Shown: positions 6,925 through 56,130 of the stretch, piece by piece
Numbering within the stretch: position 1 is the stretch's first letter
Layout of the letters: each line of letters opens with the position of its first letter
DNA from: Alphaproteobacteria bacterium
GTDB taxonomy: Bacteria; Pseudomonadota; Alphaproteobacteria; Sphingomonadales; Sphingomonadaceae
Assembly: GCA_030424845.1 (NCBI GenBank)
Contig: JAUHWC010000006.1
Span: forward strand, 62,001-126,000
Reading direction: 5' to 3'
DNA: 64,000 nucleotides
Notes under the pieces: model-generated
Seen by the model: only the letters and a program-made list of their open reading frames with translations
Database searches by the model: none
Told to the model about the DNA's origin: nothing
Translations under genes and position numbers: made by a program

Positions 6925-6939
6925 TCCCTTGGGAGAGCC

Positions 6940-32294: not shown

Positions 32295-32318
32295 AAATTA
32301 AAATGATGCTTCTATTAT
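32295..32318. promoter_or_regulatory. TetR-type palindrome between two divergent MFS genes
   Basis: AAATT-AAAAT-GATG-CTTCT-ATTAT matches the shared palindrome with two core differences. It lies in the 165-bp divergent region, 45 bp from the DHA2 start and 97 bp from the other MFS start. Confidence 0.5.
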
Positions 32319-35035: not shown

Positions 35036-35893
35036 ATGCCCCAATTGTCCCGCCGTGAAAGCTTGCGATTGATCGGTGCCTGCGGTGCCAGTCTCGCCAT
35101 TCCGTCTTGGGCGGGCGCATCGGCGCGACAGGCCCGCCACGAATGGCGTCCGCTGTGGGACGGCCAGTCACTCGATGGCTGGAGCTTCTTCCAGGAGGGT
35201 GTGGGAGAAACGGACGACAGGGGCGTTGTCACAATCAAGGATGGCGAACTTCACTTCCTTGGCGCGGGCTATGACCATCAGGACGCACCACCCGGCTTCA
35301 TCGCCACGCTGGCGGACCACGCGAGTTACCACCTGCGGCTGCAATATCGCTGGGGCGAGCGGCGCTGGGCACCGCGCGGTTGGCAGGCACGCAACAGCGG
35401 CGTGCTCTATCACATGGGTGATACCAGGCCCGGAATGCTCTTTCCCGAATGCATCGAATTCCAGATGCAGGAGGGCAATTGCGGCGATGCGATCCTGATC
35501 GACACGCTTGGCGTGCAAGGCCCTTCGCTGGGCGGCACGCCTTTATGGCCCAACTGGATTCCCGCCTTTCCCGATCAGCCGATCGAACCCACCCGCGCAG
35601 GCGGCTATGCCCGCCGATGGCTTCCCCGCCACAGCGATTTCGAGTTGCGTGACGGGTGGAACACGCTCGACCTGGTCTGCTTCGAAGACCAGGCCGCGCA
35701 GCTGGTCAACGGGCGGATCGTGAACACCGTCTACAAGCTGCGCCGCATGCTGGCGGATGGAACAGAGGGGCCGCTCGACGCTGGCCGGATCGCGCTCGAG
35801 TTCGAATGGGCGGAGATTGCCTTCCGCAACATCATGATCCGCAATCTCGATGCCGAGGCCATCGCCACGATCCGGCAACACGGTTCAGACTAG
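35036..35893 (+). CDS. DUF1080 family protein (3-keto-disaccharide hydrolase domain), exported
   Basis: This 285-residue protein has a Tat-like signal (SRRESLRLIGACGASLA) and the jelly-roll opening WRPLWDGQSLDGW typical of DUF1080/PF06439. Further family features are NSGVLYHMGD, IEFQMQEGNCGDA and a terminal FEWAEIAFRNIMIR. Characterised members hydrolyse 3-keto-glycosides after C3 oxidation. GGGGAG lies 5 nt before the ATG. It closes the MFS-hydrolase-SnoaL operon and converges on the Rieske gene with overlapping stops. A role with the GMC/gluconate-dehydrogenase pair is likely. Confidence 0.89.
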   Translation: MPQLSRRESLRLIGACGASLAIPSWAGASARQARHEWRPLWDGQSLDGWSFFQEGVGETDDRGVVTIKDGELHFLGAGYDHQDAPPGFIATLADHASYHLRLQYRWGERRWAPRGWQARNSGVLYHMGDTRPGMLFPECIEFQMQEGNCGDAILIDTLGVQGPSLGGTPLWPNWIPAFPDQPIEPTRAGGYARRWLPRHSDFELRDGWNTLDLVCFEDQAAQLVNGRIVNTVYKLRRMLADGTEGPLDAGRIALEFEWAEIAFRNIMIRNLDAEAIATIRQHGSD

Positions 35894-36906
35894 CCCTCCC
35901 CGCCAGCCTCGCGCTTGCGCATCTGCATCAGTTTGCGGCGGCAGCGGACGGCGGCGGCATCGGTTTTCAGGATTGCCGGGCGCGCGTCCCAGAAATCCTG
36001 ATCGCCCAGGGCTTCCTGTGCCGCCTCGATCATCGGCTCGTCCTCTTCGGTGAACACTTTCATGGCCAGCGCGCGAGCCTCGTCATTGGGTTCGTGATCG
36101 TAGAAATAGTGCGAACTGGATTGCGTTTCAGGCGTGATGATATGCGGGTTCAGCATGGGCGGCACCAGCGGCTTGGAGAAGTCCGTACCAGCCTGTGCCA
36201 TCTCGATTGCCAACGCCAGCGATGCAGGCGCGTGCCAGCGCATGTGAAGCTTCTGGTCCACCCGTGCGCCTTCCGGCAGGGACCCCTTGGCCCAGTCGGG
36301 CGCACGGGCGTTGGTCATGTCCCACATGTTCCAGATCGCGCCGTCGTCCGCCACTTCGACTGTCTGGGCGCCGCTTTCAAACAACGATCCGTTGGTGCCG
36401 AACGTCTCTACGTGCAGGAACTCGGCGTGGCTGAGGTCCATCAGGTTGTCTGTTACCAGTTCGTAGTTGCCCTGCATGGTCATGTGGCCGCGCTGCATGA
36501 CAGGCTCTTCCTTGTCGAGGAATGCGAAGTCGGGGATCAGTGCCGGATCAGCCAAGGCCGCATCACCGGGCCAGAACCATAAGCCGCGATAGCGAGCGAC
36601 CACCGGCATGGTGGCCGCCTTCACATGGGCCGGCGGCGCTTCGGGAAAGGGATTGTGCATGCAGGCCCCGTCCGGCCCGAAGCCCAGGCCATGATAGCCA
36701 CAACGGATGACATCGCCTTGCTTGCTTCCCATCGAAAGCGGCACGAAGCGGTGCGGGCAGCGATCTTCCAGCATGGCATAGTCGCCATTTTCGAGCCGGT
36801 GGATCAGCCACTTCTTGTCCAGCAGCACACGCGACAAGATGCCGCCTTCGGGCACTTCCTCCTGCCATGCGGCCATGTACCAACAGTTGCGAATATATGC
36901 GCTCAT
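35890..36906 (-). CDS. Rieske non-heme iron oxygenase, VanA-like (second copy)
   Basis: This 338-residue paralogue of the protein at 13605 has Rieske ligands Cys50, His52, Cys69 and His72 (CPHRF...CGYHG). The mononuclear iron motif is DNLMDLSHAEFLH with His160 and His165 and Asp157. The opening YIRNCWYMAAW again matches VanA-type O-demethylase oxygenases. GAGGA 6 nt upstream supports the start. It sits inside the glycoside block, 221 bp after the GMC oxidoreductase gene, and has a palindromic site about 200 bp upstream, so it may process a methoxylated aglycone under glycoside control. Confidence 0.94.
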   Translation of the reverse strand: MSAYIRNCWYMAAWQEEVPEGGILSRVLLDKKWLIHRLENGDYAMLEDRCPHRFVPLSMGSKQGDVIRCGYHGLGFGPDGACMHNPFPEAPPAHVKAATMPVVARYRGLWFWPGDAALADPALIPDFAFLDKEEPVMQRGHMTMQGNYELVTDNLMDLSHAEFLHVETFGTNGSLFESGAQTVEVADDGAIWNMWDMTNARAPDWAKGSLPEGARVDQKLHMRWHAPASLALAIEMAQAGTDFSKPLVPPMLNPHIITPETQSSSHYFYDHEPNDEARALAMKVFTEEDEPMIEAAQEALGDQDFWDARPAILKTDAAAVRCRRKLMQMRKREAGGEG

Positions 36907-37099: not shown

Positions 37100-37123
37100 A
37101 AACTAGAATAGTGATTTCAATAC
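37100..37123. promoter_or_regulatory. TetR-type palindrome upstream of second Rieske gene
   Basis: On the minus strand the core reads GAAAT-CACT-ATTCT followed by AGTTT, matching the shared palindrome with two differences. It lies just before the GMC gene stop at 37128, about 195 bp upstream of the Rieske start. Confidence 0.4.
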
Positions 37124-37127
37124 CTGT

Positions 37128-38819
37128 CTAGATGACCCCTTCACGCAGCAACCCAACCGCGTGGTCGCATGCTCGCGCCGTCAGCGCCATGTAGGTGAGC
37201 GAGGGGTTCTGGCAGGCAGAACTACTCATCTGCGCGCCATCTGTCACGAACAGGTTGGGCACATCATGCGCCTGGCTCCACTTGTTGAGCACCGACGTCG
37301 CCGGGTCATGGCCCATGCGCGCACCGCCCATTTCATGGATTGCGCCGCCGCCGGTGCCGGGCCGGTCAAAACCCATCAGCACCTGGCCGCCGGCGTGCGT
37401 CATCATCTCGGCAGCATCGGCCTTGGCTTGTGCAAGGGCAGCATGCTCCTCAGCGCCGAAGGCAAAGTCGATCTTCAGTTGCGGGATACCGTCCGCATCC
37501 ACCTTCCTCGGATCAAGCGTGATCCTGTTGCTCGCCCGCGGCATGCAATCGGCAAAGGCCACCAGCACCACGCGCCACGGGCCGGGGCCGCGCAGCGAAT
37601 TCTTGTAATCCGCACCAAGGCCAGGCTCGCGCTTGCCGCGCACCCATGCGGATTGCAGCGCCCCGCCCTGATAGGAATAGCCGCGCGTGTGCCCTTCGCC
37701 GTCCATCTCGTCCAGATTGCGATAGCGCGCAATCACCGTTCCGGTGGGTCGGTTGCCGAAAGTCGTCACCGCTTCGAAGCCGGGCATCAGGGCTGCCACC
37801 GAAAGCGTGCTGGGGTGGTCCATGATATGCGTGCCCAGCACACCGCTGGAATTGGCAAGGCCGGTAGGCATCACCTCGCTCGCGGAATTGAGCATCAGGT
37901 GGACGGAGTTGAAGCTGCCAGCATTCAGGAACACCATGCGCGCGGTGGCGCTGCGGCGGCGGCCTGCGGCCTTGTCGATCCAGCGCACACCGGTGACGCG
38001 CTTGGTAGCAGGATCATAGTCGACCTTTTCCACCACCGCGTCAGTCACCAAGGTCAGATTGCCGGTGGCCCGGGCGGCGGGAAGCGTGCTCGACTGGGTG
38101 GAGAAATAGGCACCGAAGGAACAGCCCCGCTGGCAGATGGAGCGGTACTGGCACTTGGCGCGGCCTTCTTTCGCCTCTGTCAGATTGGCTGTGCGGCCCA
38201 CCATCAGGCGACGTTCGGGCCAGCGTCCCATGATCCTTTCGCGCACCGCCTGTTCCACGGCATTAAGCGCCATCGGCGGCTGGAACTTGCCATCGGGCAA
38301 CTGCGGCAGGCCCTCCATCGATCCGGAAATGCCGACGAATTCCTCGACGAGGTCATACCAAGGCGCGATATCGGCATAGCGGATGGGCCAGTCGGTACCG
38401 TGCCCATCGCGGCGGTTGGCATCGAAGTCATAGTCTGACCAGCGATAGGACTGGCGGCCCCATGTCAGTGACCGGCCGCCCAGATTATAGCTGCGGAACC
38501 AGTTGAAATCGCTGCCTTCCCCGGTCTGGTAGGGGTTGTCCTTGTCGTTGACGAAGTGATCCTGCGTGAACTCCGTGAAGTGGCGGTTGAGGCGTTGGAC
38601 GGCGTATTCACGCTCGTAAAGCTCCTCGTCACCCTCGCCGCGGAAAGGCATGTCCCACGGGGCCTTCATCTCGGTCTTGTAGCCGCTCTGGTGCGGGATA
38701 TCCGGCCCGCGTTCCAGCACCAGCACTTTCAGGCCAGCCTCGGTCAGCTGCTTGGCAGACCAGCCGCCGGTGATGCCGGAGCCCACGACAATCGCGTCAA
38801 AATCGAAATCCTGTGCCAT
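37128..38819 (-). CDS. GMC-family FAD oxidoreductase, sugar 3-dehydrogenase catalytic-subunit-like
   Basis: This 563-residue protein has the FAD fold AIVVGSGITGGWSAKQLTEAG near residues 9-29. The SYNLGGRSLTWG region follows, and the C-terminal His-containing segment reads MGGARMGHDPATSVLNKWSQ and NPSLTYMALTARA. Four Cys in CQYRSICQRGC resemble those of FAD-gluconate or 3-keto-glucoside dehydrogenases. It lacks its own signal peptide. Its start shares one base with the stop of the gluconate-2-dehydrogenase-subunit-3 gene (TGATG), which has a Tat signal and would carry it to the periplasm. Likely reaction is C3 oxidation of glycosides. Confidence 0.9.
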   Translation of the reverse strand: MAQDFDFDAIVVGSGITGGWSAKQLTEAGLKVLVLERGPDIPHQSGYKTEMKAPWDMPFRGEGDEELYEREYAVQRLNRHFTEFTQDHFVNDKDNPYQTGEGSDFNWFRSYNLGGRSLTWGRQSYRWSDYDFDANRRDGHGTDWPIRYADIAPWYDLVEEFVGISGSMEGLPQLPDGKFQPPMALNAVEQAVRERIMGRWPERRLMVGRTANLTEAKEGRAKCQYRSICQRGCSFGAYFSTQSSTLPAARATGNLTLVTDAVVEKVDYDPATKRVTGVRWIDKAAGRRRSATARMVFLNAGSFNSVHLMLNSASEVMPTGLANSSGVLGTHIMDHPSTLSVAALMPGFEAVTTFGNRPTGTVIARYRNLDEMDGEGHTRGYSYQGGALQSAWVRGKREPGLGADYKNSLRGPGPWRVVLVAFADCMPRASNRITLDPRKVDADGIPQLKIDFAFGAEEHAALAQAKADAAEMMTHAGGQVLMGFDRPGTGGGAIHEMGGARMGHDPATSVLNKWSQAHDVPNLFVTDGAQMSSSACQNPSLTYMALTARACDHAVGLLREGVI

Positions 38820-39445
38820 CAGCCGAACTCCACCCCGTTCCATTCATTGGAATAGGCACGCGTATCAGGCGCGACAGGCACTGCCGGATCGTAACGTCCC
38901 GGAAGCGGCTCGTACGCCAGTTCCCGCGAACCGCCGATTTCCGACGTATAATATCCGGTAAGGATCAACCCCTTCACCATGCGCCAGGGATGTGCGCCTG
39001 CTTCAGGGCCGAAGGCTTGCGCGTCGATGGTGGCGAGCGCTTCCAGCTTGCGCTCGGCGGGCTTCGATGGCCAGTCGCCACCCACTGCGCGGTCCAGCGT
39101 GCTTTCCAGCCAGCGTGCATGGTCAAGGCTGCCATCACGGCGCAGATGCGGGCGGATAGTGGTGCTTACCGCATCAGGTGCCAGCGCCGCGCGCGCGCCT
39201 TCAAGGCCGTGGGCAAGCGCCAGCAGAACGAAATCGCCGACCCCGGCTGCACCAGCACCCGGCGTTTCGGTATCGGGGATCACCATGTCTGCCACTTCGC
39301 GCATGATCGCACGCTGGCGATCGCTCGGCGCATCGGCATCATCCAGCCCATCAAGGTAGACTGCCGCCGAGGGCAACCCGAGCGCCAGCGCCAATAGTGA
39401 TGCTGCGCCGGCAAATTCGCGGCGGCTCCAGCCCTTGCCTTCCAT
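38819..39445 (-). CDS. Gluconate 2-dehydrogenase subunit 3 family protein (Tat-exported)
   Basis: This 208-residue protein has a Tat signal (SRREFAGAASLLALALG) and the PF13618 core (IMREVADMVIPDTETPGAGAAGVGDFV, split here for length: MREVADMVIPDTETPGA then AGVGDFV). It is followed by MVKGLILTGYYTSEIGG. Such small subunits pair with GMC flavoproteins and carry them across the membrane by a hitch-hiker mechanism; the complexes feed electrons to cytochromes. No cytochrome c gene is adjacent. A palindromic site lies 55 bp upstream in the divergent region. Confidence 0.92.
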   Translation of the reverse strand: MEGKGWSRREFAGAASLLALALGLPSAAVYLDGLDDADAPSDRQRAIMREVADMVIPDTETPGAGAAGVGDFVLLALAHGLEGARAALAPDAVSTTIRPHLRRDGSLDHARWLESTLDRAVGGDWPSKPAERKLEALATIDAQAFGPEAGAHPWRMVKGLILTGYYTSEIGGSRELAYEPLPGRYDPAVPVAPDTRAYSNEWNGVEFG

Positions 39446-39494: not shown

Positions 39495-39518
39495 ATATCA
39501 GAATGGATATTCTATTTC
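39495..39518. promoter_or_regulatory. TetR-type palindrome, best match, between GDH3 and thioredoxin-like genes
   Basis: The core AGAAT-GGAT-ATTCT is a perfect inverted repeat, flanked by ATATC and ATTTC. It lies in an 85-bp divergent gap, 55 bp from the minus-strand start and 17 bp from the plus-strand start. Confidence 0.6.
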
Positions 39519-40157: not shown

Positions 40158-41213
40158 TCAGTCGATGCCCATGATGCGGCGGTTGAGTTCGCGATCGCTG
40201 CCACCTGCGGCGAAATCGTCAAACGCATGTTCTGTCACGCGGATGATGTGATCGGCAATGAAGGGTGCACCTTCTGCCGCGCCCTGTTCAGGGTGCTTAA
40301 GCGCGCATTCCCATTCCAGCACGGCCCAGCCGCCGAAATCATACTGCGCCATCTTGGAGAAGATGCCGGAGAAATCGACCTGCCCGTCACCCAGCGAGCG
40401 GAAGCGACCAGCACGATCCACCCAGCTCTGGTAACCGCCATAAACGCCTTGGCGCCCTGTCGGGTTGAACTCGGCATCCTTCACGTGGAAGCACTTGATG
40501 CGCTCGTGATAGATGTCGATGAAATCGAGATAGTCGAGGCATTGCAGCACGAAGTGGCTGGGATCGTAGAGGATGTTCGCACGCGGATGGTTGCCCGTGC
40601 GTTCAAGGAACATCTCGTAAGTGATCCCGTCATGCAGGTCCTCGCCCGGATGGATTTCATAGCCGATATCCACGCCGCATTCGTCAAAGTGATCGAGGAT
40701 CGGCTTCCACCGGCGGGCAAGCTCGTCAAACGCATCTTCCACCAGGCCAGCCGGGCGCTGCGGCCAGGGATAGACATAGGGCCATGCGAGTGCGCCCGAG
40801 AAGCTGGCATGGGCGTTGAGGCCCAGCCGCTTGCTGGCGGTGCCGGCGTTCTTCACTTGCTGCACGGCCCATTCCTGCCGCGCCTTCGGATTGCCGCGCA
40901 CATGCTCTGCGGCAAAGCCGTCGAACTGCGCGTCATAGGCGGGATGTACAGCCACAAGCTGGCCTTGCAGGTGAGTGGAAAGCTCGGTGATTTCCATGCC
41001 GTGCGAAGCGACAATGCCCTTCACCTCGTCACAATAGGCCTGGCTCTCTGCAGCTTTGTCGAGGTCGAACAGGCGCGCGTCCCAGCTGGGGATCTGGATA
41101 CCCTTGTAGCCAAGGCCGGACACCCATTCACAGATCCCGTCGAGCGAGTTGAACGGTGCCTTGTCGCCGGCAAACTGGGCGAGGAAAATGGCAGGGCCCT
41201 TGATGGTCTTCAT
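40158..41213 (-). CDS. TIM-barrel sugar isomerase/epimerase-like protein
   Basis: This 351-residue AP-endonuclease-2-like TIM barrel has metal-ligand segments ITELSTHLQGQ, YEIHPGEDLHDG, NILYDPSHFVLQ and CFHVKDAEF, and ends WECALKHPEQGAAEG. The gene follows the Gfo/Idh/MocA gene after 20 bp. This dehydrogenase-plus-TIM-barrel pair is common in sugar clusters, where the barrel isomerises, epimerises or eliminates from keto-sugars. The exact reaction is unknown, but 3-keto-sugar processing fits the context. Confidence 0.9.
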   Translation of the reverse strand: MKTIKGPAIFLAQFAGDKAPFNSLDGICEWVSGLGYKGIQIPSWDARLFDLDKAAESQAYCDEVKGIVASHGMEITELSTHLQGQLVAVHPAYDAQFDGFAAEHVRGNPKARQEWAVQQVKNAGTASKRLGLNAHASFSGALAWPYVYPWPQRPAGLVEDAFDELARRWKPILDHFDECGVDIGYEIHPGEDLHDGITYEMFLERTGNHPRANILYDPSHFVLQCLDYLDFIDIYHERIKCFHVKDAEFNPTGRQGVYGGYQSWVDRAGRFRSLGDGQVDFSGIFSKMAQYDFGGWAVLEWECALKHPEQGAAEGAPFIADHIIRVTEHAFDDFAAGGSDRELNRRIMGID

Positions 41214-41233: not shown

Positions 41234-42349
41234 TCAGACTGTAAGGTCCACCCAGCCCGCTTCTGCGGCGCTGGCACGGACGGCCGTATCGATAAAGGCC
41301 ATCGACCGCAGGCCTTCATCGAGGCGCGGCAGGCACGATGCGTCCTCACCGCGCAAGACGGCGGCGAAATCGCGATATATGTTGGCGAAGGCTTCCAGAT
41401 AGCCTTCGGGATGGCCACCGGGTGTGCGCGTGCGGCTGGTGGCCAGTTCACCCAGCGAGGCATCGCCAGCGCGGATGATTTCCGTCCGTCCGTCAAGGTG
41501 ATGGAAGGTGAAGCTGTTGGGCTCTTCCTGCTTCCAGCTCATCCCGCCCTTGTCGCCATAGCAGCGGATTCGCAGGCCGTTGAGTTCGCCCACCTCGATC
41601 TGGCTGGCCAGCAGCACGCCGCGCGCACCATTGGCAAAGCGCAGCAGGACAGAGCAATCATCATCCAGCAGGCGCCCCGGAACCACGGCGGCCAGATCGG
41701 CAAACAGGCGAGTCACTTTCTCACCGGTTACGAATTCGGCGAGGTTGAAGGCGTGCACGCCGATATCGCCGATGCATCCGCCCGCGCCCGCCCGTTCGGG
41801 GTCAACGCGCCATTCGGCCTGCTTGCCCTCGGCAGGCTGCGAGAGCCAGCCCTGCGGATATTCGACCACCACCTTGCGCAAGCTGCCGAGCGCGCCAGCC
41901 GCGATGCGCGCCTTCATTTCGCGCACCAGCGGATAGCCGGTGTAGGTATAGGTGAGGCCGAACGGCAGGCCCGCTGCCTTCACAACGCCAGCCAGTTCCT
42001 GCGCTTCGGCCAGCGTCGCCGTCATCGGCTTGTCGCTGATGACCGGGAAGCCGGCTTCCAGCGCAGCGCGCGCAGAAGGCAGGTGGTTGTGATTGGGCGT
42101 GACGACGCTGACGAAGTCGATCCCGTCAGGCCGCGCCTTCTCCGCCTGAAGCATTTTGGCCAGATCGCCATAGGCACGCGAAGGGTCGATAAGGTACTGG
42201 TCAGCCGCCGCGCGCGACCTGTCGGCATCGGATGAGAACACCCCGGCCACCAGTTCTATCTCTCGGTCGAGTTCCGCCGCAAAGCGATGGACCGGACCGA
42301 TAAATGCCCCCGGCCCGCCGCCGATCATGCCCATTCTCAGGCGCCTCAT
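41234..42349 (-). CDS. Gfo/Idh/MocA family NAD(P)-dependent sugar dehydrogenase
   Basis: This 371-residue protein has the Rossmann start MGMIGGGPGAFIGPVHRFA. It has DKP in place of the usual EKP (SDKPMTATLAEA) and a catalytic GDIGVHAFN. It would oxidise a sugar hydroxyl, possibly at C3 as in puerarin-type glycoside oxidation, or reduce a 3-keto sugar. GGGAGG 6 nt before the ATG supports the start. It is divergent from xylB with a palindromic site between. It leads the two-gene operon with the TIM-barrel protein. Confidence 0.91.
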   Translation of the reverse strand: MRRLRMGMIGGGPGAFIGPVHRFAAELDREIELVAGVFSSDADRSRAAADQYLIDPSRAYGDLAKMLQAEKARPDGIDFVSVVTPNHNHLPSARAALEAGFPVISDKPMTATLAEAQELAGVVKAAGLPFGLTYTYTGYPLVREMKARIAAGALGSLRKVVVEYPQGWLSQPAEGKQAEWRVDPERAGAGGCIGDIGVHAFNLAEFVTGEKVTRLFADLAAVVPGRLLDDDCSVLLRFANGARGVLLASQIEVGELNGLRIRCYGDKGGMSWKQEEPNSFTFHHLDGRTEIIRAGDASLGELATSRTRTPGGHPEGYLEAFANIYRDFAAVLRGEDASCLPRLDEGLRSMAFIDTAVRASAAEAGWVDLTV

Positions 42350-42365
42350 CGAAACCCTCCCATAA

Positions 42366-42389
42366 AATTTGTAATCTGCATTCTAGTTT
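42366..42389. promoter_or_regulatory. TetR-type palindrome between Gfo/Idh/MocA and xylB
   Basis: AATTT-GTAAT-CTGC-ATTCT-AGTTT matches the shared 24-bp palindrome with two core differences and lies in the 93-bp divergent gap, 17 bp from the minus-strand start and 54 bp from xylB. Confidence 0.55.
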
Positions 42390-43885: not shown

Positions 43886-43887
43886 CC

Positions 43888-45265: not shown

Positions 45266-45640
45266 TCAGGCCGCGAGTGCCAGTTGCTTGGTATCCTTCG
45301 TGGTCGGAACGAAGGGCAGGTAGGAAACGCGGTTGCGCACCGCGAAAGTGATCTCGTGATCGCCAGCTGCAAGCCCGCCGTTCAGCACGATGATCCGCGC
45401 CTTCTCGCCAAAGTTCCAACGGTCGTCATAAACCGTTTCCATCTCGTCGAGCGTGTAGGTCTTGCCTCGAACGCTGAAACGCACGGCATCGCGCGGCTGC
45501 ACGTCGCCATCCACGGTCACCTGGATATCCTCGATCATGGAAAGGCCCAGGCCGCGGTAATAGGGCAGGCGCCCGAGGAAGGAAAAGCCGCCTTCAACGC
45601 TTTCAAGGCTGCCTTCGACGATCATCTTGTTGTCCATCAT
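45266..45640 (-). CDS. C-glycoside deglycosidase beta subunit (DUF6379)
   Basis: This 124-residue protein matches the C-glycoside deglycosidase beta-subunit domain by conserved blocks: LPYYRGLGLSMIEDIQVTVDG (shortened: PYYRGLGLSMIEDI), YTLDEME, DDRWNFGEKA, GGLAAGDHEI and RVSYLPF. Known homologues (DgpC, CarC, DfgB) form a complex with a TIM-barrel alpha subunit and support elimination of the C-C glycosidic bond of 3-keto-C-glycosides. It lies 13 bp after the alpha gene, with AAGGAG before the start, so co-expression is likely. It ends before a strong terminator. Confidence 0.85.
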   Translation of the reverse strand: MMDNKMIVEGSLESVEGGFSFLGRLPYYRGLGLSMIEDIQVTVDGDVQPRDAVRFSVRGKTYTLDEMETVYDDRWNFGEKARIIVLNGGLAAGDHEITFAVRNRVSYLPFVPTTKDTKQLALAA

Positions 45641-45653
45641 CGCTCAGGTCTCC

Positions 45654-46703
45654 TTATTCTGCAGCTTCGGCCGTAGCGGCCATGGCTGATGCGTTTGCAG
45701 GGGTAGTGATCTTCGGGTCTTCGCTTTCGCCCAGCAGGCGGGCCAGCATCACCTGCTGGCGGCGGACCTGTTCGACACTGTCCGGCTCTTCGGCATCCTC
45801 GATCCAGCGATTGCCTTCATATTCGGAGCAGATGTAGCCGTCATAGCCGCCCTGTTTGAGCACTGCGACGATCTCGTCATAGGGGATCGAAGGCTCCACA
45901 TAGTCCTCGTCCATCTGGTAGAACTTGCCATGGATGTTGTGGATGCGCGGCATGTAATCGAGCATGCGCTTGGGTTCGAAGGCAGCATTGTGGCGCATGG
46001 TTTCGGCCATCGCGATGGCAGGGCCGGTGCCACCCAGTTCCTGCACGCCGAGGATCACATATTCGCTCAGCACGCGGTCTTCATAGGACTTCACGATATA
46101 GTCGGAGATGTTCTTAGGCACGCCAAGACGTTCGAACTTGTCACGCCAGACCGGCGGGAAGGCGTGGAGGAACATGCCCATGTCGGGCAGGAAGCCCAGC
46201 GCATCCGAACCGCTCTTCTCGAAAGCTTCCGCGTGGCGGATGATCCACGGATGGTCGAAATGCAGCGGAGCGTGCACCTCGATCAGGATCTTGATGCCCT
46301 TCTCCTCGGCATAGGGAGCCGCTGCAACCAGCACTTCAGGGGCGATGGACACCAGCGCGCGGATATATTTCATGCCAAGGCGCGCACCGAAATCGATGTC
46401 GTTCTTCACGCTCGCCACTTGCTCGTCAAACGGCATGATGCGGCCCTTGTAGCGCTTGTAGTCGAGCATGAAGTCATGGCTCACCGGCACGCAATCATAC
46501 TTCTTGATCAGCGCATGCCAGTGATCGACGTCGGCATCATCCACGCCGCATTCGGGCCAGCCCCAGAAGGTCTGCTCGCCGATGATCTCGATGCCTCCGG
46601 CACCCAGTTCGGCACAGGTACGGATGCAATCCTCCAGGTTCATCTTCTCCTGGAAGGTTTCGTTCTGGAAGGAATAGAGGCTCACGCCCCGTTTGATCGC
46701 CAT
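45654..46703 (-). CDS. C-glycoside deglycosidase alpha subunit (TIM-barrel)
   Basis: This 349-residue AP-endonuclease-2-like TIM barrel starts MAIKRGVSLYSFQNETF. It has metal-site segments AGGIEIIGEQTFWGWPE, PVSHDFMLDYKRYKG, ILIEVHAPLHFDHPW, FLPDMGMFLHAFPP, IHNIHGKFYQMDEDY and CSEYEGNRW. Homologues DgpB, CarB and DfgA catalyse a metal-dependent base-type elimination that releases aglycone and 1,5-anhydro-type keto-sugar. The start at 46703 has AGAGGA upstream; the frame from 46763 adds no family sequence. It is divergent from the DoxX gene with a palindromic site between them. Confidence 0.85.
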   Translation of the reverse strand: MAIKRGVSLYSFQNETFQEKMNLEDCIRTCAELGAGGIEIIGEQTFWGWPECGVDDADVDHWHALIKKYDCVPVSHDFMLDYKRYKGRIMPFDEQVASVKNDIDFGARLGMKYIRALVSIAPEVLVAAAPYAEEKGIKILIEVHAPLHFDHPWIIRHAEAFEKSGSDALGFLPDMGMFLHAFPPVWRDKFERLGVPKNISDYIVKSYEDRVLSEYVILGVQELGGTGPAIAMAETMRHNAAFEPKRMLDYMPRIHNIHGKFYQMDEDYVEPSIPYDEIVAVLKQGGYDGYICSEYEGNRWIEDAEEPDSVEQVRRQQVMLARLLGESEDPKITTPANASAMAATAEAAE

Positions 46704-46785
46704 CTCGGTAATCCTCTTTACTGGCAACTGCCAAGGCGCTGCCGACCATAGAACGAGCCGCATGGCTTGCGCGACTCAAAATTTA

Positions 46786-46809
46786 TAATTAGAACTCTCA
46801 TTCTATTAA
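46786..46809. promoter_or_regulatory. TetR-type palindrome upstream of the deglycosidase genes
   Basis: TAATT-AGAAC-TCTC-ATTCT-ATTAA matches the palindrome with one core difference. It lies in the divergent region, 83 bp from the deglycosidase alpha start and 36 bp from the DoxX start. Confidence 0.6.
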
Positions 46810-48142: not shown

Positions 48143-49249
48143 TCAGATGGGCTGCGCCACCACCTTAAACATCTCGGCGGCGGCGCGGCCCATGTCCACC
48201 GGCTCACCTAGCCCCTGTTGCCCGCGGCAGATCGCCAGCGAGCGTTCGACGATGTAGGAACAGCGCGGCGCGCGGCGCGCGTGATAGGCGGCAAAGGCAT
48301 CTTGGGGTTGGCCATGCCGCGCCAGTTCTTCGGCCAGCACCAGTGAATCCTCGATCGCCATGCCCGCACCCTGCCCCAGGTGCGGCGTCGTGGCATGGGC
48401 GGCATCGCCCAGCAGCACAATCCGCCCGCGATGCCACGGCCCGTCCACCAGCACGGTGTGGAGGGGACGATAAACCACGCCCGCATCATCGGTGATCTGC
48501 TCACCCAGCTCGCGGATGGCAGGGGCGCAACCGGCAATCCTTTGACGCATGGCAGCCGCCAACCCCTCCTGCGGCAAACGCTGTCCATCCGGCTCGGCCG
48601 TCACCACGAACATATACATCTGTTCCCGCGAGATGGGTGCAAGGCCCACGCCCACCGCGCCATTGTAGGTGCGCAGGGCATCCATGTCGGAAGTGCGCGG
48701 CAGGTTGTAGCGCCAAACCGCCTGCCCGGCATAGGCAGGGGGCGGGGCTTCGGGAAACAGCTTGGAGCGCGTCTGGCTGCCAAGACCATCTGCCCCCACC
48801 ACAAGGTCGAAGCTGTCAACACTGCCATCGGAGAACTTCAAATCCACCGTCTCGCCCCGATCCGCGATCGATGTGGCGGTCACGCCCAACCGCACTTCGG
48901 CTCCCCTCGCCTTGACGCCCTCTCCCAGCACCCGGTTCAACGCCGGGCGGGCAATGCCGATATTGGCGGGATAGCCTGGTGCCAGGTGCGGAGAAGGCAC
49001 CCGTGCCAACAACTTTCCATCTGGCGCATAGGCTTCCACCGCGTCATAACCGAAGCCGGCATTCACATAGTCATCGATGATGCCCAGCTGGTGCACCGCG
49101 CGCACCACGTTGGATTGCTGGGTGATCCCCACGCCTTCGACGGACCATTCCGGATCGCGTTCGATCACGACCACGTCGATTTTCTGCCGGCGCATGGCGA
49201 TGGCTGCCGTCAGCCCGCCGATCCCGCCGCCGATGACCAGTGCGCGCAT
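48143..49249 (-). CDS. FAD-dependent aromatic monooxygenase (UbiH/PHBH-like), third copy
   Basis: This 368-residue group A flavoprotein hydroxylase has VIGGGIGGLTAAIAMRRQ at the start, FDLVVGADGLGSQTRSK, and GRIVLLGDAAHATTPHLGQGAGMAIED with the FAD GD motif. It is the last gene of the leftward TIM-barrel/GPH-symporter/ThuA/nucleoside-hydrolase operon, starting 6 bp after the nucleoside hydrolase stop. Its place in a sugar operon suggests the aglycone is hydroxylated as part of glycoside use. It is closest in layout to the gene at 9094. Confidence 0.93.
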   Translation of the reverse strand: MRALVIGGGIGGLTAAIAMRRQKIDVVVIERDPEWSVEGVGITQQSNVVRAVHQLGIIDDYVNAGFGYDAVEAYAPDGKLLARVPSPHLAPGYPANIGIARPALNRVLGEGVKARGAEVRLGVTATSIADRGETVDLKFSDGSVDSFDLVVGADGLGSQTRSKLFPEAPPPAYAGQAVWRYNLPRTSDMDALRTYNGAVGVGLAPISREQMYMFVVTAEPDGQRLPQEGLAAAMRQRIAGCAPAIRELGEQITDDAGVVYRPLHTVLVDGPWHRGRIVLLGDAAHATTPHLGQGAGMAIEDSLVLAEELARHGQPQDAFAAYHARRAPRCSYIVERSLAICRGQQGLGEPVDMGRAAAEMFKVVAQPI

Positions 49250-50238: not shown

Positions 50239-51201
50239 TCACTCCTTTCCAGGCACCTCGAAGTCCGCGGCCTTTTCGTAAGGCTCTATCGTGACTTCGC
50301 CGGTGGCCGCCCATTCGGTACCGCGCATCATCAGCGTGCGCACGCCGTCATAGGCCAGCGTATCGGGGCCGTGCCCCAGGGTAATGGAGAATACACGCCC
50401 CTCGCCATAATCCTGCACCCAGACTTGCGGCTGCGAACTATCGATGCCGTCCATTTCGGCCAGGCGTTCAGGCGTATAGGCTTCCGGAGGGTATTTCGGC
50501 CCGGCCACTTCGGGCACGTAGTTTTCGGCATCGTCATAGGCAGTGGCCAGCACGCGCACCTCAGCTTCGGGATGGAACACCATGTTGGTGTACATGTCCT
50601 CGATAAAGCTCCAGTGATAACGCCTGAGGCCACGCGTGACCGGATGATCGCGGTCGACCAGCTCGAACATGAAGGCATCGGGCGGCGAACGGCGCGAATG
50701 GCCTGGCTGCATCACCGCGCCCACCAGGCGCTTGTATTCATCGATATCGCGCCCCCAGGTGAAGCTGGAGTGATAGGCAACAAGGCCGCCGCCCTGCTCG
50801 ACATAATCATACAGCGCCTGAAAGGCCTCGTCAGACCACAGGTGCTGGTCCGGATCGGTATAATTCCAGCGGCTGGAGTAGTTGAGGATGACCACGTCGT
50901 AGTCCGCCAGCATGGCGAGGTTGCCCTCGTCGAAATCCTCGGTCACGCGCACGTCGAAACGGCCCGTGTCCTGCAACTGCCAGCGCAGCAGGTTGTTCAC
51001 GCCCGTCCAGTCATGCTCGTAGCTGTTCTGGCCGCTGATGATCAGGACATTGATCCGCTCCTCCGCCGGATTGACCGGAATGGAGACCCGTTGGACAGTC
51101 TCGGGCGGGCGATAGGTCGACTCCACGACCGGCTGGGCCAGAGCCGTGAAGGCACACAGCAAGCTGCCAAGCGCTGCGAGCGCCGTGATCTTCCGCTTCA
51201 T
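50239..51201 (-). CDS. Exported ThuA-domain protein
   Basis: This 320-residue protein has a Sec signal ending in AFTALAQ, then a ThuA/trehalose-utilisation domain (INVLIISGQNSYEHDWTGVNN, DYDVVILNYSSRWNY, YVEQGGGLVAYHSSF, FSITLGHGPDTL). The domain is a class-I-glutamine-amidotransferase-like fold seen near 3-keto-disaccharide enzymes. Its enzymatic function is unsettled; roles in keto-sugar isomerisation or hydrolysis have been proposed. It lies between the GPH symporter and nucleoside hydrolase genes in one operon. Confidence 0.9.
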   Translation of the reverse strand: MKRKITALAALGSLLCAFTALAQPVVESTYRPPETVQRVSIPVNPAEERINVLIISGQNSYEHDWTGVNNLLRWQLQDTGRFDVRVTEDFDEGNLAMLADYDVVILNYSSRWNYTDPDQHLWSDEAFQALYDYVEQGGGLVAYHSSFTWGRDIDEYKRLVGAVMQPGHSRRSPPDAFMFELVDRDHPVTRGLRRYHWSFIEDMYTNMVFHPEAEVRVLATAYDDAENYVPEVAGPKYPPEAYTPERLAEMDGIDSSQPQVWVQDYGEGRVFSITLGHGPDTLAYDGVRTLMMRGTEWAATGEVTIEPYEKAADFEVPGKE

Positions 51202-51233: not shown

Positions 51234-52550
51234 TCAGGCAGGCGCGCGGTCAGGCAACGGCTTGTCCATCGGCCAGAACCACACGACCACGCCCTGGATG
51301 AACAACAGCACAGCCGCTCCGCCGTAATAGGACCAGCGGATCGCCTCGCGTGCGGCATCGGTCACAGCATCGGGCTGGTAATCGAACCAGCCGAGCATGA
51401 ATGCGACACCTGCGGAACCCACCGCCATGCCGATCTTCGTCGCAAGGCTCACGCCTGCAGACAGGATGCCCTCATTGCGGCTGCCGTGCTTCCATTCGTG
51501 GTAATCAACCGTGCCCGCGATCATCGTGAAGGCCGCCGTGATGGTGAGAGATGTCACCAGTGCCGCGGCGATATAGATCGTCAGGAACAACGGGATATTG
51601 CCTTCAGCCAGCGGCAAGAGCAGGAACAGAACCGCAGAAACGGCGAAGATGGCGAGGCAACCGTTGCGGATGCCGGTGCGCGTCAGGATCGGCGGGGCGA
51701 TGAATGCTGACAGCAGCAGCGTGCCGGAAACCGCCGGCAGCATGATCGAGATCAGCCACGGCTGGCCCAGAACGTCGATTGCCAGGTAAGGTGTCTCGGC
51801 CATCATCGCGCCGAAGCGGATGAAGTAGAACAGGCAGGACAGGAAAGCGACGATCCACGCCCGGTTGCGCAGCATCTGCCCGATCACCGGCAGCACCGGC
51901 TGGTGCGCGCCCGCAGGCGTGGTGATGCGCTCGCGGCAATTGCGGAACAGGGCGAAGATCACGATCAGCGAAAGTCCGGCAAACAGCACGGCGACGGCAA
52001 GGAAACCGCGCTGCTCGTCCCCGCCGCCGAACAGGCCGACCAACGGCAAGGTGGCAGCCGTACCCAGCACCACTGAGGCAGACGTACCGACAGAGCGCAT
52101 GCCCGACAGCTTCAGCCGTTCGCCGGTGTCTGCCGTCATCATCGGCATCAGCGCGGTATAGGGAATGGATCCCAGCGACATCAGTATGCCCAGCGCCTTG
52201 AAGGTGATGAAGGCATAGACCAGCTGCGCGTTCACGCCCCAGTCTGGCACCGCGAACACGGCGATGAACACCAACGCATAGGGAATGGCGGTAAACAGGA
52301 AATAGGGACGCGTGCGTCCCCAGCGAGTGCTGGTGCGATCCACTGCAATGCCGACAAGGATATCGATTACCGCATCCATCAGCCGCGCGGTCAGGAAGAT
52401 CACGCCAACCGCAGTCGCGGGCAGGCCGACGATGTTGGTATAGTAATAAAGCAGGAAACCGCTGGCCATGTTGTAGGCCAGCGAGAAGCCGAAATCACCG
52501 AAGCCGTAGCTGAGGCGTTCGACCAGCGAGAGGCGCTGCCTGGCGCTCAT
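51234..52550 (-). CDS. MFS sugar symporter, glycoside-pentoside-hexuronide (GPH) family
   Basis: This 438-residue protein has about 12 transmembrane segments and the GPH opening LSLVERLSYGFGDFGFSLAYNMASGF. It continues with FLTARLMDAVIDILVGIAVDRTSTRWGRTRPYFLF, a conserved cation-coupling region of MelB/XynB-type carriers (shown partly as DAVIDILVGIAVDRT). It imports a glycoside or pentoside with a cation. The start at 52550 has GAGG about 9 nt upstream. It is the second gene of the operon, 10 bp after the TIM-barrel gene. Confidence 0.92.
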   Translation of the reverse strand: MSARQRLSLVERLSYGFGDFGFSLAYNMASGFLLYYYTNIVGLPATAVGVIFLTARLMDAVIDILVGIAVDRTSTRWGRTRPYFLFTAIPYALVFIAVFAVPDWGVNAQLVYAFITFKALGILMSLGSIPYTALMPMMTADTGERLKLSGMRSVGTSASVVLGTAATLPLVGLFGGGDEQRGFLAVAVLFAGLSLIVIFALFRNCRERITTPAGAHQPVLPVIGQMLRNRAWIVAFLSCLFYFIRFGAMMAETPYLAIDVLGQPWLISIMLPAVSGTLLLSAFIAPPILTRTGIRNGCLAIFAVSAVLFLLLPLAEGNIPLFLTIYIAAALVTSLTITAAFTMIAGTVDYHEWKHGSRNEGILSAGVSLATKIGMAVGSAGVAFMLGWFDYQPDAVTDAAREAIRWSYYGGAAVLLFIQGVVVWFWPMDKPLPDRAPA

Positions 52551-52560: not shown

Positions 52561-53325
52561 TCAGCCACCCAGCGTCTCCGCAGCAGCTGCAATCGACCTG
52601 GCACTGTCCATGGTCGGGAAATACTCAAGGCCAATCGGCCCGGTGTAGCCCAGTTCCCTGAGCGTGCGCATGACCTCGGCATAGTCAAGCTCACCGGTTG
52701 CCGGCTCGTTGCGGCCCGGCCAGCCAGCCACCTGCACATGTTCGACGAGGTGCATGCGACCTTCGAGCACTTCGCGCATGTCCTCGCCCATCACGCGGCT
52801 GTGGTAGACGTCATAGATCAGCTTCAGGCGCGGGCTGCCCACCTCCTCGATGATATCCAGCGCCAGCTTGGTGCTGACGAGATACATCGTTGCGAACAGC
52901 TCTGTATTGAGCGGCTCCAGTACCAGCGTGACGCCGGCCTCCTCGGCAAGCGCGGCGGCACGGGTCAGCACGCTCACCGCGTTGGCGCGGTGTTCTTCTT
53001 CCGACATGCCATCAACGCGAAAGCCCGATGCAATGATAAGCGGGGGCGATCCCAGCTTCTGCGCCACGGCCAGCGTATCGGCAACGGCAGATAGCATCTC
53101 ATCATGTTCTGCGGGATCAACAATGGATCGGCGCGGATCGACACAGAAACCGGTGAGCTTGCTGGCCGTTTCTGCCAGGGCGGAGGCGATGCCCTCCACG
53201 TCCTTGTCACGCCAGAGGTGAAATTCGACGAGATCGAGGCCTGCGGCCTTGGCCGCGCGGATCCGGTCGGGGAGGCCTTCACCAGCCTCGGAAAATTGCC
53301 ATTCGATGCAAGACGACAGCTTCAT
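52561..53325 (-). CDS. Hydroxypyruvate-isomerase-like TIM-barrel protein
   Basis: This 254-residue protein has LEPLNTELFATMY, KLIYDVYHSRVMGED, HVQVAGWPGRNEPATGELDY (HVQVAGWPGRNEP) and IGLEYFP, a set typical of hydroxypyruvate isomerase/OtnI-type sugar isomerases. It probably isomerises a short sugar or keto-sugar acid. It is the first gene of the leftward operon and is separated from the TonB receptor upstream by a strong hairpin. It is one of three TIM-barrel isomerase-like proteins in the block. Confidence 0.9.
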   Translation of the reverse strand: MKLSSCIEWQFSEAGEGLPDRIRAAKAAGLDLVEFHLWRDKDVEGIASALAETASKLTGFCVDPRRSIVDPAEHDEMLSAVADTLAVAQKLGSPPLIIASGFRVDGMSEEEHRANAVSVLTRAAALAEEAGVTLVLEPLNTELFATMYLVSTKLALDIIEEVGSPRLKLIYDVYHSRVMGEDMREVLEGRMHLVEHVQVAGWPGRNEPATGELDYAEVMRTLRELGYTGPIGLEYFPTMDSARSIAAAAETLGG

Positions 53326-53404: not shown

Positions 53405-55762
53405 TTAGTAGTCCAGGCTCAGGCGCAAGCCGAAGGTTGTCGGCGTGCCGAACTGCCAGTTGTAGATATCGTCCGGACCAGCCGACACGAACGAGCCATA
53501 AGTCAGGGCACGCTCGTTCTCGAGGTTGCGGGCGAAGAACTGAACGCCGAGGGTGTCGCTCTCGTTCCGCCACTCGATGCTGAGATCAGTCTGCGTGAGC
53601 GAGGATTGTTCACCATCGTTGTAGTTATAGAAATCGGTGAAGTAGCTGCTCTTGAAGGTGGTCGAGATACCACCCGTAATGCTGCCGTCCTTGCCGAAAT
53701 CGAAAGTGTGGCTGAGGCCTGCCCGGATCACCCACTTGGGCGAGAAGGGCGCGGTGTTGCCGGCAAAGTTCGGCTGCTGGACACCGGCCTGGGTCGGATC
53801 CAGGTCGCCAATACCGTTGATCGGACAACCGCCAACGCAGAACACGTTGAACTGGGCAAACAGCTCGTCATAGGTCGCATCGAGATAGTTGACCGACAGG
53901 TCAAGCACGGTGCCCTGCTCGAAATCGAACACACCTTCCGCTTCCAGGCCCCAAATGGTTGCCGCACCGGCATTGAAGGTCTGGCCACCAACTGACGTGT
54001 CGAGCAGTACCGAGACCTGCAGGCCGCTGTAATCGTAGTAGAAGCCGCCCAGGTTCACCTGGTAGTTGCCGCCTGGCCCGAAGGTGAACTTGCCACCTGC
54101 TTCATATGCGGTGTTCGTTTCCGGGGCGTAAGCACCCACGGAGTCGAAGCCACCACCCTTGAACCCGGTCGATACCTTGGCGAAGAGCAGCGTATCCGGG
54201 TTGGGCTGATAATTCACGCCCAGCAGCCAGGTAACCTTGTCATCGCTGCTGCCGAGGTTGAGCGTGGTGAGGAACCGCATCTGGGAGAAGTCCTTGCGAT
54301 CCGTACCATTGCCGAACAGGTGCGGATCAGGCGGACCGGCGCCAAAGGCCGAAGCGTTGCGGTAGAGTGCATCGCGCGAGTTGTCGGTGTAACGCACACC
54401 GGCTACCGCCGTGAGCGTCTCGCTTACCGGCACTTCGACCTGTCCAAAGGCTGACAGGCTGTCGCTGCTCACATCGCGACTGAAGTAGCTGAGGAATGCG
54501 CCGCCACCCGGCGGGATCATGAAGCCGGATTCGTTACTCTGCTTCTCGTCGAAATAGAACGCACCCACCTGGTAGACGATGCCGTTGAGGTCACCGTTGA
54601 GACGCAGTTCGTGGCTCTGTGTTTCGACGTCGTCCAGGAAGCTGAAGCTGCGGTAGGTCACCGGCAGCGTCACGAAGCTGTCTGGATCGCCGGAATATTC
54701 GCGATAGCCTGCAATGTAGCTGAGCGTCGCATTTTCACCGATGTCATAGGCGATGCGGCCACGCACGGCCCATGTGTTGTCGCCGATCTCGCCAAGGCCA
54801 TAGCCGGGTGACTGATATTCCGCGCGGTCAATGTTATCGAGGAAGTTGGTCCCCGAGGGAACGCACAGGGTTTCGGTATAGGCGGGTGCCACGCGATCAT
54901 AACCGGCGAGGTTGCAGCTAGGACCGGTGGGCGCATTGCCCGGAGCGTTGAGATCGCCAAAGGCAAAAGCCTGCGGCGTGAATCGGCGATCTGCAAATTC
55001 TGCTGCGATAGTCGCGGTCAGAGGGCCGCCATTGTCGAAATCGAGGGTTGCGCGCCCGCCGTAGGCGCTGTTGTCATCCGAACGACCACCCGCGAACGGC
55101 GGGAACGGCCCGAAGCCGTAACCGGCCGGATGCTTGACGTAGCCATCTCGCTCTTCCCAGAAGCCTGCAACGCGCAGGCCCACGGCATCACCCAACGGGA
55201 TGTCGATGCCGGCATCAAAGCGATAGGCGCTGTAGTTTCCAAGCGACAGGGAGGCGTTGACGCCCAGCTCGTCACCCGGCTTGCGTGTGATGAAGTTGAT
55301 TGCGCCGGCAGTCGAGTTGCGACCGTAGAGGGTTCCCTGCGGGCCACGCAGCACTTCCACACGCTCGAGGTCGAAGATCGCCACGCCCAGCACATTCGGG
55401 CGGTTGATGTATTCGCCATCAATATTGGTCACCACCGAAGTGTCCTGCGCTTCGTCGTTCGAGTTTGTCCCGATACCACGCAGGGTGATCTTCACCGTGC
55501 CCTGGTCCTGCACGACCTGGACCGCCGGAGCGATCTGGCCGAGATCCTCTGCATTGGTAAAGCCTTGCGATGCCAGTTCGTCGGCTCCGACGACATCCAT
55601 GGCGATCGGCACGTCCGTCACGTCCTGCGCGCGGTTCTGTGCCGTCACCACGATGACATCATCATTGGTATCCTCAGCCGCTTCCTGTGCATGGGCAGGC
55701 ATGGCGAGCATTGCCAGGCCGCAGCCAGCCAGCAAGAGTGACTTGTGTGAAAACTTGCTCAT
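53405..55762 (-). CDS. TonB-dependent outer-membrane receptor
   Basis: This 785-residue protein has a signal peptide ending in AMPAHAQ and a TonB-box-like DDVIVVTAQNRAQ. The plug domain reads TLRGIGTNSNDEAQDTSV and VEVLRGPQGTLYGRNSTAGAIN, and the barrel ends LRLSLDY. It would import a glycoside or polyphenol across the outer membrane. It lies upstream of the sugar operon and divergent from the TetR gene, 368 bp away, so it is a candidate member of the TetR regulon. Confidence 0.94.
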   Translation of the reverse strand: MSKFSHKSLLLAGCGLAMLAMPAHAQEAAEDTNDDVIVVTAQNRAQDVTDVPIAMDVVGADELASQGFTNAEDLGQIAPAVQVVQDQGTVKITLRGIGTNSNDEAQDTSVVTNIDGEYINRPNVLGVAIFDLERVEVLRGPQGTLYGRNSTAGAINFITRKPGDELGVNASLSLGNYSAYRFDAGIDIPLGDAVGLRVAGFWEERDGYVKHPAGYGFGPFPPFAGGRSDDNSAYGGRATLDFDNGGPLTATIAAEFADRRFTPQAFAFGDLNAPGNAPTGPSCNLAGYDRVAPAYTETLCVPSGTNFLDNIDRAEYQSPGYGLGEIGDNTWAVRGRIAYDIGENATLSYIAGYREYSGDPDSFVTLPVTYRSFSFLDDVETQSHELRLNGDLNGIVYQVGAFYFDEKQSNESGFMIPPGGGAFLSYFSRDVSSDSLSAFGQVEVPVSETLTAVAGVRYTDNSRDALYRNASAFGAGPPDPHLFGNGTDRKDFSQMRFLTTLNLGSSDDKVTWLLGVNYQPNPDTLLFAKVSTGFKGGGFDSVGAYAPETNTAYEAGGKFTFGPGGNYQVNLGGFYYDYSGLQVSVLLDTSVGGQTFNAGAATIWGLEAEGVFDFEQGTVLDLSVNYLDATYDELFAQFNVFCVGGCPINGIGDLDPTQAGVQQPNFAGNTAPFSPKWVIRAGLSHTFDFGKDGSITGGISTTFKSSYFTDFYNYNDGEQSSLTQTDLSIEWRNESDTLGVQFFARNLENERALTYGSFVSAGPDDIYNWQFGTPTTFGLRLSLDY

Positions 55763-56130
55763 TATTTCCTCCCAGGCGACGCTTGCGATGCGCCGTTATC
55801 TGTTTGCCTTGTTCCTAGCATCCCCACGTCCGGCCATTTCCCGGGCCGAACTCCCATTTCGCGGCCTGCACCCTTGCGCCCACCTTGAACGCTTGACGAC
55901 GCACAGTCCTCGATAGGGTAAGTGATGACGCAGTCAGACAATTAAGTAAAATTGTATGATTGCATGGTTTCCTATCGCTCTTATGGATAGGTTATCCCGT
56001 ATAACGATCCCTTCCGGCCTTTGGCGCCACTTGCGCGACCTCCATCAGGCCGCTTGTCCGGACGCATCTCCCGCTCCGCGAATCAAAATTAGAATTGCGG
56101 TTCTTGTTTATTTGAGCGAATGCCCTGCCT
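55763..56130. other. Divergent regulatory region between TonB receptor and TetR gene
   Basis: This 368-bp region has no supportable gene. It carries AT-rich dyads CAATT-N6-AATTG (55939-55954) and GTTAT-N5-ATAAC near 55991-56005. The strong TetR-type palindrome lies at 56086-56109. It must hold the promoters of both the receptor and the regulator. Confidence 0.65.
56086..56109. promoter_or_regulatory. TetR-type palindrome upstream of the TetR gene
   Basis: AAATT-AGAAT-TGCG-GTTCT-TGTTT has one core difference from the perfect palindrome and ends 21 bp before the ATG at 56131. This position is typical of an autoregulatory operator. Confidence 0.65.

Follow-up and report, generated by a model that had tools for sequence, protein, structure and literature searches.

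In a 64,000-nucleotide stretch of a sphingomonad genome (Alphaproteobacteria bacterium, family Sphingomonadaceae; assembly GCA_030424845.1, contig JAUHWC010000006.1, positions 62,001 to 126,000; hereafter the window, whose numbering is used unless stated otherwise), two adjacent genes very likely encode a C-glycoside deglycosidase (CGD), a type of enzyme that breaks a bond ordinary glycosidases do not. We conclude, with a probability of roughly 0.82, that these genes are the alpha and beta subunits of a CGD acting in a regulated pathway for removing the sugars of plant phenolic glycosides. The two genes are:

45654..46703, minus strand: CGD alpha subunit, a TIM barrel; 349 aa counted from its ATG (46703)
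45266..45640, minus strand: CGD beta subunit (PF19906), 124 aa

Family and fold of the pair

The alpha gene comes first in the reading direction, with 13 bp between it and the beta gene, and a longer alpha frame reaching 46763 also exists. The initial annotation had described a tightly spaced TIM-barrel protein and 124-residue protein and had taken the latter for a deglycosidase beta subunit. Both points held up: the four peptide blocks that it quoted are all present in the beta translation, and the small protein scored 117.4 bits against the hidden Markov model of Pfam family PF19906 (CGDB, 'C-glycoside deglycosidase beta subunit'; cut-off 27.6). For the alpha subunit, Pfam recognized only the broad AP_endonuc_2 domain, and NCBIfam contained no model matching either subunit.

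Each subunit matched eight distinct PDB sequences at E<=0.001. For alpha, the best of these was 8qvc_A (E 1.3e-109; next 1.4e-39), and the matches included entries titled CGD, DgpB-C, DfgA-B, and AgCarB2-C2. An AlphaFold2 model of the alpha subunit alone (mean predicted local distance difference test score 87.9) gave as its top structural matches 8umc and 8qvc, the C-glucosyl deglycosidase of Deinococcus aerius (51% identity, TMq 0.89), followed by DgpB-C, DgpB2/C2, AgCarB2-C2, DgpB1/C1, DfgA-B, and the Microbacterium testaceum CGD. All entries at ranks 1-16 were of the CGD type, with other isomerases appearing from rank 17. Based on family, fold, catalytic residues, and gene order, the pair is very likely a CGD-type eliminase, that is, a 3-keto-glycoside beta-eliminase.

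Related loci and conservation of the catalytic residues

A scan of genome contigs with the alpha protein yielded 95 relatives, of which the best 80 were examined (14 of these are shorter than 20 kb). Alpha identities over the best segment were 68-89%. Most of the loci belong to Sphingomonadales (Novosphingobium, Sphingomonas, Sphingobium, Erythrobacter, and Blastomonas), and the remainder include Ideonella, Pelomonas, Pseudomonas, Pantoea, Pluralibacter, alteromonads, Paracoccus, Azospirillum, and Nitrospirillum. The neighborhoods most similar to that of the window were found in Alteraurantiacibacter buctensis (L051) and in an Erythrobacter metagenome-assembled genome (L068). PF19906 was detected in 14 of 199 genomes at the family rank and 12 of 296 at the order rank (some genomes being counted in both), and among the eight genomes listed for the window's genus only in its own and one other (G103); the system is thus accessory. 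Genome G333 of the same family contains six PF19906 matches.

In AgCGD2, the metal is bound by E147, D179, H269, K271, and E305 (one His, two Glu, one Asp, and one Lys), and His149, supported by E307, is the proposed base (PMC8563793). Alignments placed the corresponding ligands of the window's alpha subunit at E142, D174, H258, K260, and E294, so that the metal site sought by the initial annotation is complete, and placed the base and its supporting residue at H144 and E296. We counted these residues in 107 alpha sequences, comprising two from the window's own genome and 105 from the 80 related loci. E142, H144, D174, and K260 were invariant (107/107), E294 and E296 were retained in 106 sequences and gapped in one (one row, L101, being incomplete), and position 258 was His in 105. 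The two exceptions, both Gln at this metal-binding position, are extra CGD-like alpha copies in the Ideonella loci L093 and L094, where each is about 40% identical and lies beside two other pairs; they are perhaps changed or inactive enzymes.

For the beta subunit, the relevant residue is Tyr39 of PuCGE, which is needed for cleavage of C-glycosides and scarcely for that of O-glycosides (PMC10628242). Its counterpart in the window is Tyr28, positioned through PDB alignment offsets together with the alignment of a second pair in the same genome (described below) with DgpB, and it was kept in all 102 beta sequences. The beta subunit diverges faster than the alpha subunit: across 76 loci (2850 pairs) its median identity is 65.3% versus 79.4%, and beta was the less similar subunit in 2712 of the pairs.

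A palindrome shared across the island and among relatives

The initial annotation had noted a palindromic operator from which the pair is divergent. The element lies between the alpha gene and the divergent DoxX gene, and similar copies (consensus about TTAGAAT-N4-ATTCTAA) recur through the surrounding gene island. The seven non-overlapping sites, listed without strand, and the candidate regulator are:

46789..46806: putative operator, between CGD alpha (85 bp) and divergent DoxX (26 bp)
30613..30630: ahead of a TonB receptor gene; the weakest operator-like palindrome of the set
32298..32315: operator-like palindrome in the gap that separates a divergent pair of MFS genes
37103..37120: operator-like palindrome preceding the gene for the Rieske oxygenase
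39498..39515: operator-like palindrome flanked by the dehydrogenase small subunit and an AhpC/TSA-family gene
42369..42386: operator-like palindrome separating Gfo from xylB
56089..56106: operator-like palindrome flanked by a TonB receptor and tetR
56137..56799, plus strand: TetR-family regulator, candidate reader of the palindrome (family match, association with sites)

At up to three mismatches, the window contained eight matches to the pattern versus 0.99 expected, and none of 100 shuffles reached eight; the pattern was built from the 46789 site and a match at 46783 overlaps this source, so that six of the eight are independent, while the expectation covers all. By the gene calls all seven sites are intergenic, and intergenic DNA makes up 2906 of the 34590 bases of that region. 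Over the whole genome, 16 places matched at this stringency versus nine for a reversed control, and eight of the 16 (one overlapping another) fall within the 40-kb island stretch. A copy with two mismatches also occurs outside the island (contig C7 of the same genome, 715093-715110, L108).

A first symmetric profile made from the seven window sites was run over 101 kb of the contig, and its best match was a site that had not been used to build it. This site lies past the window end, where it is flanked by the beta gene of a second CGD pair and a divergent GMC gene. This second pair (contig 132859-134290; alpha at 6859-7854 and beta at 7871-8290 of contig segment 126001-143311, L003, both on the minus strand) lies 7-8 kb past the window end. 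Its identity to the first pair is only 29% for alpha and 23% for beta, but it matches solved CGDs and keeps all the catalytic residues. Pairs of this second type were found near the first in 23 of the 80 loci.

The later profile consisted of the seven sites plus that of the second pair, with no related locus in its training, although the loci are related to one another. A threshold of 11 bits proved too lax (55/80 loci observed versus a permuted mean of 16, largest 49), and 20 bits was therefore adopted. At or above 20 bits, the 80 loci contained 153 positions, whereas 100 column-permuted profiles averaged 1.7 (largest 24). In 39 loci, CGD alpha had such a site in the 400 bp ahead of it; the average over 200 permutations was 0.4 (largest 20). 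At a threshold of at least 18 bits, 75 of the 80 loci contained a site. The genes most often named at the flanks of the 224 sites at this level were CGD alpha (54), MFS of the 32509 type (36), TonB receptor (33), TetR (21), dehydrogenase small subunit (20), Gfo (18), and second-type beta (17). Flanks were named by matches to 41 references only, 22 of the 224 sites having no named neighbor within 500 bp on either side, and the location of these sites outside genes was checked against the named genes only. In several loci that lack a site ahead of CGD alpha, the MFS gene immediately precedes alpha in the same orientation and has the site upstream of itself.

Twenty further loci, which may include species represented among the 80, were scored as well. 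A site of at least 20 bits was present in eight (permuted mean 0.05, largest 3), and at 18 bits or more sites occurred in six of nine loci whose alpha shares 79% identity or more with that of the window, in all three of the second type, and in none of the eight others, which had more divergent alpha matches or none.

The TetR-family protein is the probable regulator of this gene set through the palindrome. TetR matches were present in 62 of the 75 loci with a site versus one of the five without (Fisher p 0.0065, uncorrected for relatedness), and a site of at least 15 bits lay near the start of 40 of the 63 TetR matches. A LysR protein was also considered as the reader and rejected, as it showed no association (11/75 loci with a site, 0/5 without; p 1).

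Neighboring genes of the proposed pathway

The initial annotation had placed sugar dehydrogenases and aglycone oxygenases near the pair, which family assignments bear out, and had proposed a complete pathway in one locus. This proposal is supported. Oxidation, elimination, hydration, reduction, and import each have a candidate among the local genes, which are listed here with other members of the island:

37128..38819, minus strand: GMC flavin adenine dinucleotide (FAD) dehydrogenase, candidate glycoside 3-dehydrogenase large subunit (family match)
38819..39445, minus strand: Gluconate_2-dh3 small subunit with a twin-Arg N-terminus (Pfam)
40158..41213, minus strand: homologue of the 2-hydroxy-3-keto-glucal hydratase AtHYD (8ro4)
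41234..42334, minus strand: Gfo/Idh/MocA oxidoreductase, candidate 3-keto-glucose reductase (family match)
51234..52550, minus strand: MFS_2 sugar transporter (family match; 54/80 loci)
32509..33642, plus strand: MFS transporter (in some relatives immediately ahead of CGD alpha in the same orientation)
53405..55711, minus strand: TonB-dependent receptor (family match; 47/80 loci)
50239..51201, minus strand: ThuA-family protein (family match)
52561..53325, minus strand: AP_endonuc_2 TIM barrel of 254 aa, hydroxypyruvate-isomerase-like (family match)
35201..35893, plus strand: 3-keto-disaccharide hydrolase domain (PF06439, DUF1080) protein (8/80 loci)
35890..36906, minus strand: Rieske oxygenase (VanA-like), candidate aglycone O-demethylase (operator upstream)
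48143..49249, minus strand: FAD-dependent monooxygenase, candidate aglycone hydroxylase (family match)

The GMC protein and the twin-Arg small subunit reproduce the subunit layout of GlycDH. The nearest PDB sequences to the former were fructose and glucose dehydrogenase subunits (E about 1e-38), with a weak match in the C-terminal part to the pyranose oxidase 8qve (E 6.1e-11). The candidate oxidant is thus nearest to dehydrogenases and differs in kind from the FAD oxidases CarA and PurA and from DgpA, which depends on nicotinamide adenine dinucleotide (NAD). The hydratase homologue matched AtHYD (8ro4_A) over residues 1-350 of 351 at E 5.4e-186. A second GMC gene (contig 125374-127059, beginning at window position 63374 and crossing the window end) is 50% identical to the first and has its own twin-Arg small subunit, and ThuA- and MFS-like genes and further TIM barrels, labeled by reading the translations without a family search, accompany the second CGD pair in the adjoining segment.

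To assess how widely these genes travel with the CGD, 41 island proteins were used as references, and presence was defined as one tblastn stretch covering at least half of the reference at E<=1e-10. Overlapping matches were assigned to the best reference, so that paralogues compete and absences may be overcounted. On this basis, CGD beta was present in 78 of the 80 loci (in the remaining two, the contig stops inside alpha or shortly beyond it), followed by TetR (63), the MFS proteins of the 32509-33642 (55) and 51234-52550 (54) types, the TonB receptor (47), the small subunit (45), GMC (43), the 254-aa TIM barrel (43), the hydratase (42), Gfo (42), and ThuA (30). In the 66 loci longer than 20 kb, the hydratase and Gfo occurred together in 37 and never one alone.

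Also counted by the initial annotation among the pathway's neighbors were xylB and xylA (42443-45201, both above their NCBIfam cut-offs). They are indeed present and face Gfo across an operator, but they are not conserved neighbors (XylA 1/80 loci, XylB 3/80) and are therefore weak evidence for the pathway, and we rejected them as a general part of it. L029, the single one of the 80 loci with a XylA match, has a similar arrangement across an operator, so that the genes look like a local addition.

The 254-aa TIM barrel at 52561-53325 was most similar to the NCBIfam hydroxypyruvate isomerase model (161.9 bits, below the cut-off of 353). A role as an O-glycoside eliminase gained no support, in that no eliminase was named among the 30 PDB sequences that it matched at E<=0.001, in a library where the entry for the O-glycoside eliminase AtOGE was not pinpointed. 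An extradiol-dioxygenase-like protein also belongs to the island; together with the Rieske and FAD monooxygenase proteins it could, judging by family, serve in treatment of the aglycone, and the MFS and TonB proteins could serve in import. The island further contains a nucleoside-hydrolase-like protein with a twin-Arg N-terminus (49256-50236; 6/80 loci). Beside it lies a large alpha-L-rhamnosidase-like protein (59944-63309; NCBIfam AlphaRhamBT4145, 218 bits, below cut-off) with a jelly-roll domain above cut-off, which would fit rhamnosylated flavonoids. Positions 1-25000 of the window hold a set of the aromatic-catabolism type (FAD monooxygenases, a Rieske oxygenase, extradiol-type dioxygenases, an O-methyltransferase, and an FAA hydrolase), where the palindrome copies are low-scoring only.

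Proposed pathway and alternative explanations

Gene order and the shared palindromes make it likely that the CGD works with the neighboring dehydrogenase, hydratase, and Gfo proteins. We propose the following order of steps and their locations in the cell. A TonB receptor would admit the glycoside, a periplasm-facing FAD dehydrogenase composed of the GMC and twin-Arg small subunits would oxidize the sugar at C3, and an MFS carrier would import the resulting 3-keto-glycoside. In the CGD, with the metal in the alpha barrel and the aglycone at the alpha/beta interface, His144 would take the C2 proton and Tyr28 of beta would stabilize the phenolate, so that the aglycone is expelled and 2-hydroxy-3-keto-glucal is formed. 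The hydratase would then convert this product to 3-keto-glucose, the Gfo enzyme would reduce 3-keto-glucose to glucose, and the Rieske and FAD oxygenases would act on the aglycone. A TetR-type protein probably controls both the island and the second, divergent CGD pair through the shared palindrome, which would lead to joint induction of two eliminases that differ in their aglycone pockets.

Several observations count against this proposal. The GMC protein, small subunit, hydratase, and Gfo were all found within about 10 kb of the CGD in only 18 of the 66 long loci, so that elsewhere either other partners are used or the genes are further away. No site of at least 18 bits was found in five of the 80 loci or in three of the nine close relatives among the 20 further loci. 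The link to TetR is statistical: 13 of the 75 site-bearing loci had no TetR match in the stretch examined, a site near the start accompanied only the 40 of 63 matches mentioned above, and the matches extend down to 31% identity, so that some may be other TetR proteins. Finally, a characterized CGD also cleaves 3-keto-O-glucosides, and C-glycosides may therefore not be the main substrate (PMC10628242).

This last point leads to the alternative that the enzyme is a CGD by descent but acts in nature mainly on O-glycosides, with C-C cleavage minor or lost and the island a general route for polyphenol O-glucosides, which we regard as possible although rather unlikely. PuCGE cleaves both 3-keto-O- and 3-keto-C-glucosides, and a generalist role has since been argued from the far greater abundance of O-glycosides (PMC10628242); the hydratase and Gfo correspond to enzymes of an O-glycoside route, and a GH1 protein and the alpha-rhamnosidase-like protein, both O-glycoside enzymes, are encoded nearby. 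Against this stand the retention of beta in every locus whose contig does not end at alpha and the invariance of a tyrosine that O-glycoside cleavage by PuCGE scarcely needs. C-glycosides are plausible as real substrates in light of the invariant tyrosine; O-glycosides, which a CGD carrying that tyrosine also accepts, may matter as much or more.

It is doubtful, to a greater degree, that the CGD is active with another oxidant (the second GMC protein, or Gfo acting in the manner of DgpA) and that the GMC and small-subunit pair serves a different glycoside. The Gfo-family protein DgpA is the oxidant of gut CGD systems (PMC12724307), GMC was matched in only 43 of the 80 loci, and a second GMC of the same kind is available in the genome, but the shared palindromes stand upstream of the small subunit here and in relatives (20 site flanks), and Gfo never lacks the hydratase in the long loci, in keeping with a reductive role late in the route. 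Scarcely credible, finally, is the view that the TIM barrel is a common sugar isomerase or epimerase paired with an unrelated small protein: the broad AP_endonuc_2 assignment would allow it, but the leading 16 structural matches are of the CGD type and precede any isomerase, and both the beta family and the full set of catalytic residues are those of a CGD.

Comparison with known systems

CGD homologues in Proteobacteria have been noted previously from database searches (PMC8563793; PMC12724307). We found no study of such a CGD system in sphingomonads in the open-licence literature, judged by titles and the beginnings of abstracts; among the papers listed on sphingomonads is one that concerns Sphingobium of tomato roots and steroidal glycoalkaloids. 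The enzyme type is known, whereas the combination of oxidant and eliminase and the regulon look new. CGDs are widespread although C-glycosides are scarce, a mismatch discussed in PMC10628242. The conserved operator and its candidate TetR sensor may offer a direct handle on this question, in that finding the inducer would indicate the substrate class of the regulon. With its two divergent pairs and the faster change of their beta subunits, the regulon is likewise a ready set for studying how beta governs the choice of aglycone. We give even odds to the broader proposal that sphingomonads and some other Pseudomonadota break down C-glycosides by a third variant, which relies on a dehydrogenase and is separate from those of gut bacteria (NAD, Dgp) and actinobacteria (FAD oxidase, Car/Pur), and in which a conserved TetR-type operator induces two CGD pairs with different aglycone pockets; if it is true, the inducer would reveal the natural substrate of environmental CGDs.

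The CGD of D. aerius (PDB 8qvc, 8qvd, 8umc), which like the window's enzyme has its subunits on separate chains, is the closest solved system by sequence for both subunits and by fold for alpha, although alpha identity is only 51%. Its C3-oxidizing partner is reportedly the pyranose oxidase 8qve. PuCGD/PuCGE (DgpB-C) of the gut strain PUE has the same metal ligands, base, and beta tyrosine as the window's pair but differs in its low alpha identity (31%) and in its NAD-dependent oxidant DgpA (PMC12724307). The soil systems CarABC (Microbacterium) and PurABC (Paenarthrobacter) likewise join a CGD to an FAD enzyme that oxidizes C3 (PMC12724307); CarA and PurA are reported there as oxidases, PurA needing oxygen, whereas the window has a GMC dehydrogenase with a twin-Arg small subunit and adjoining hydratase and Gfo genes.

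In Agrobacterium tumefaciens, GlycDH, AtOGE, AtHYD, and a Gfo protein convert a glucoside to aglycone and glucose, with the hydratase role of AtHYD resting on preliminary evidence (PMC10628242). The chemical logic is the same as that proposed here, the hydratase is a very close homologue, and the FAD dehydrogenase and Gfo are of the same general kinds, but the eliminase AtOGE is reported to be specific for O-glycosides (PMC10628242), and the window has the CGD alpha/beta pair in its place. Caulobacter LacABC with its DUF1080 protein resembles the island in the extracytoplasmic 3-oxidation of glycosides and in the DUF1080 protein itself, and differs in that the available part of that account describes hydrolysis, not elimination, and describes no CGD (PMC9007349).

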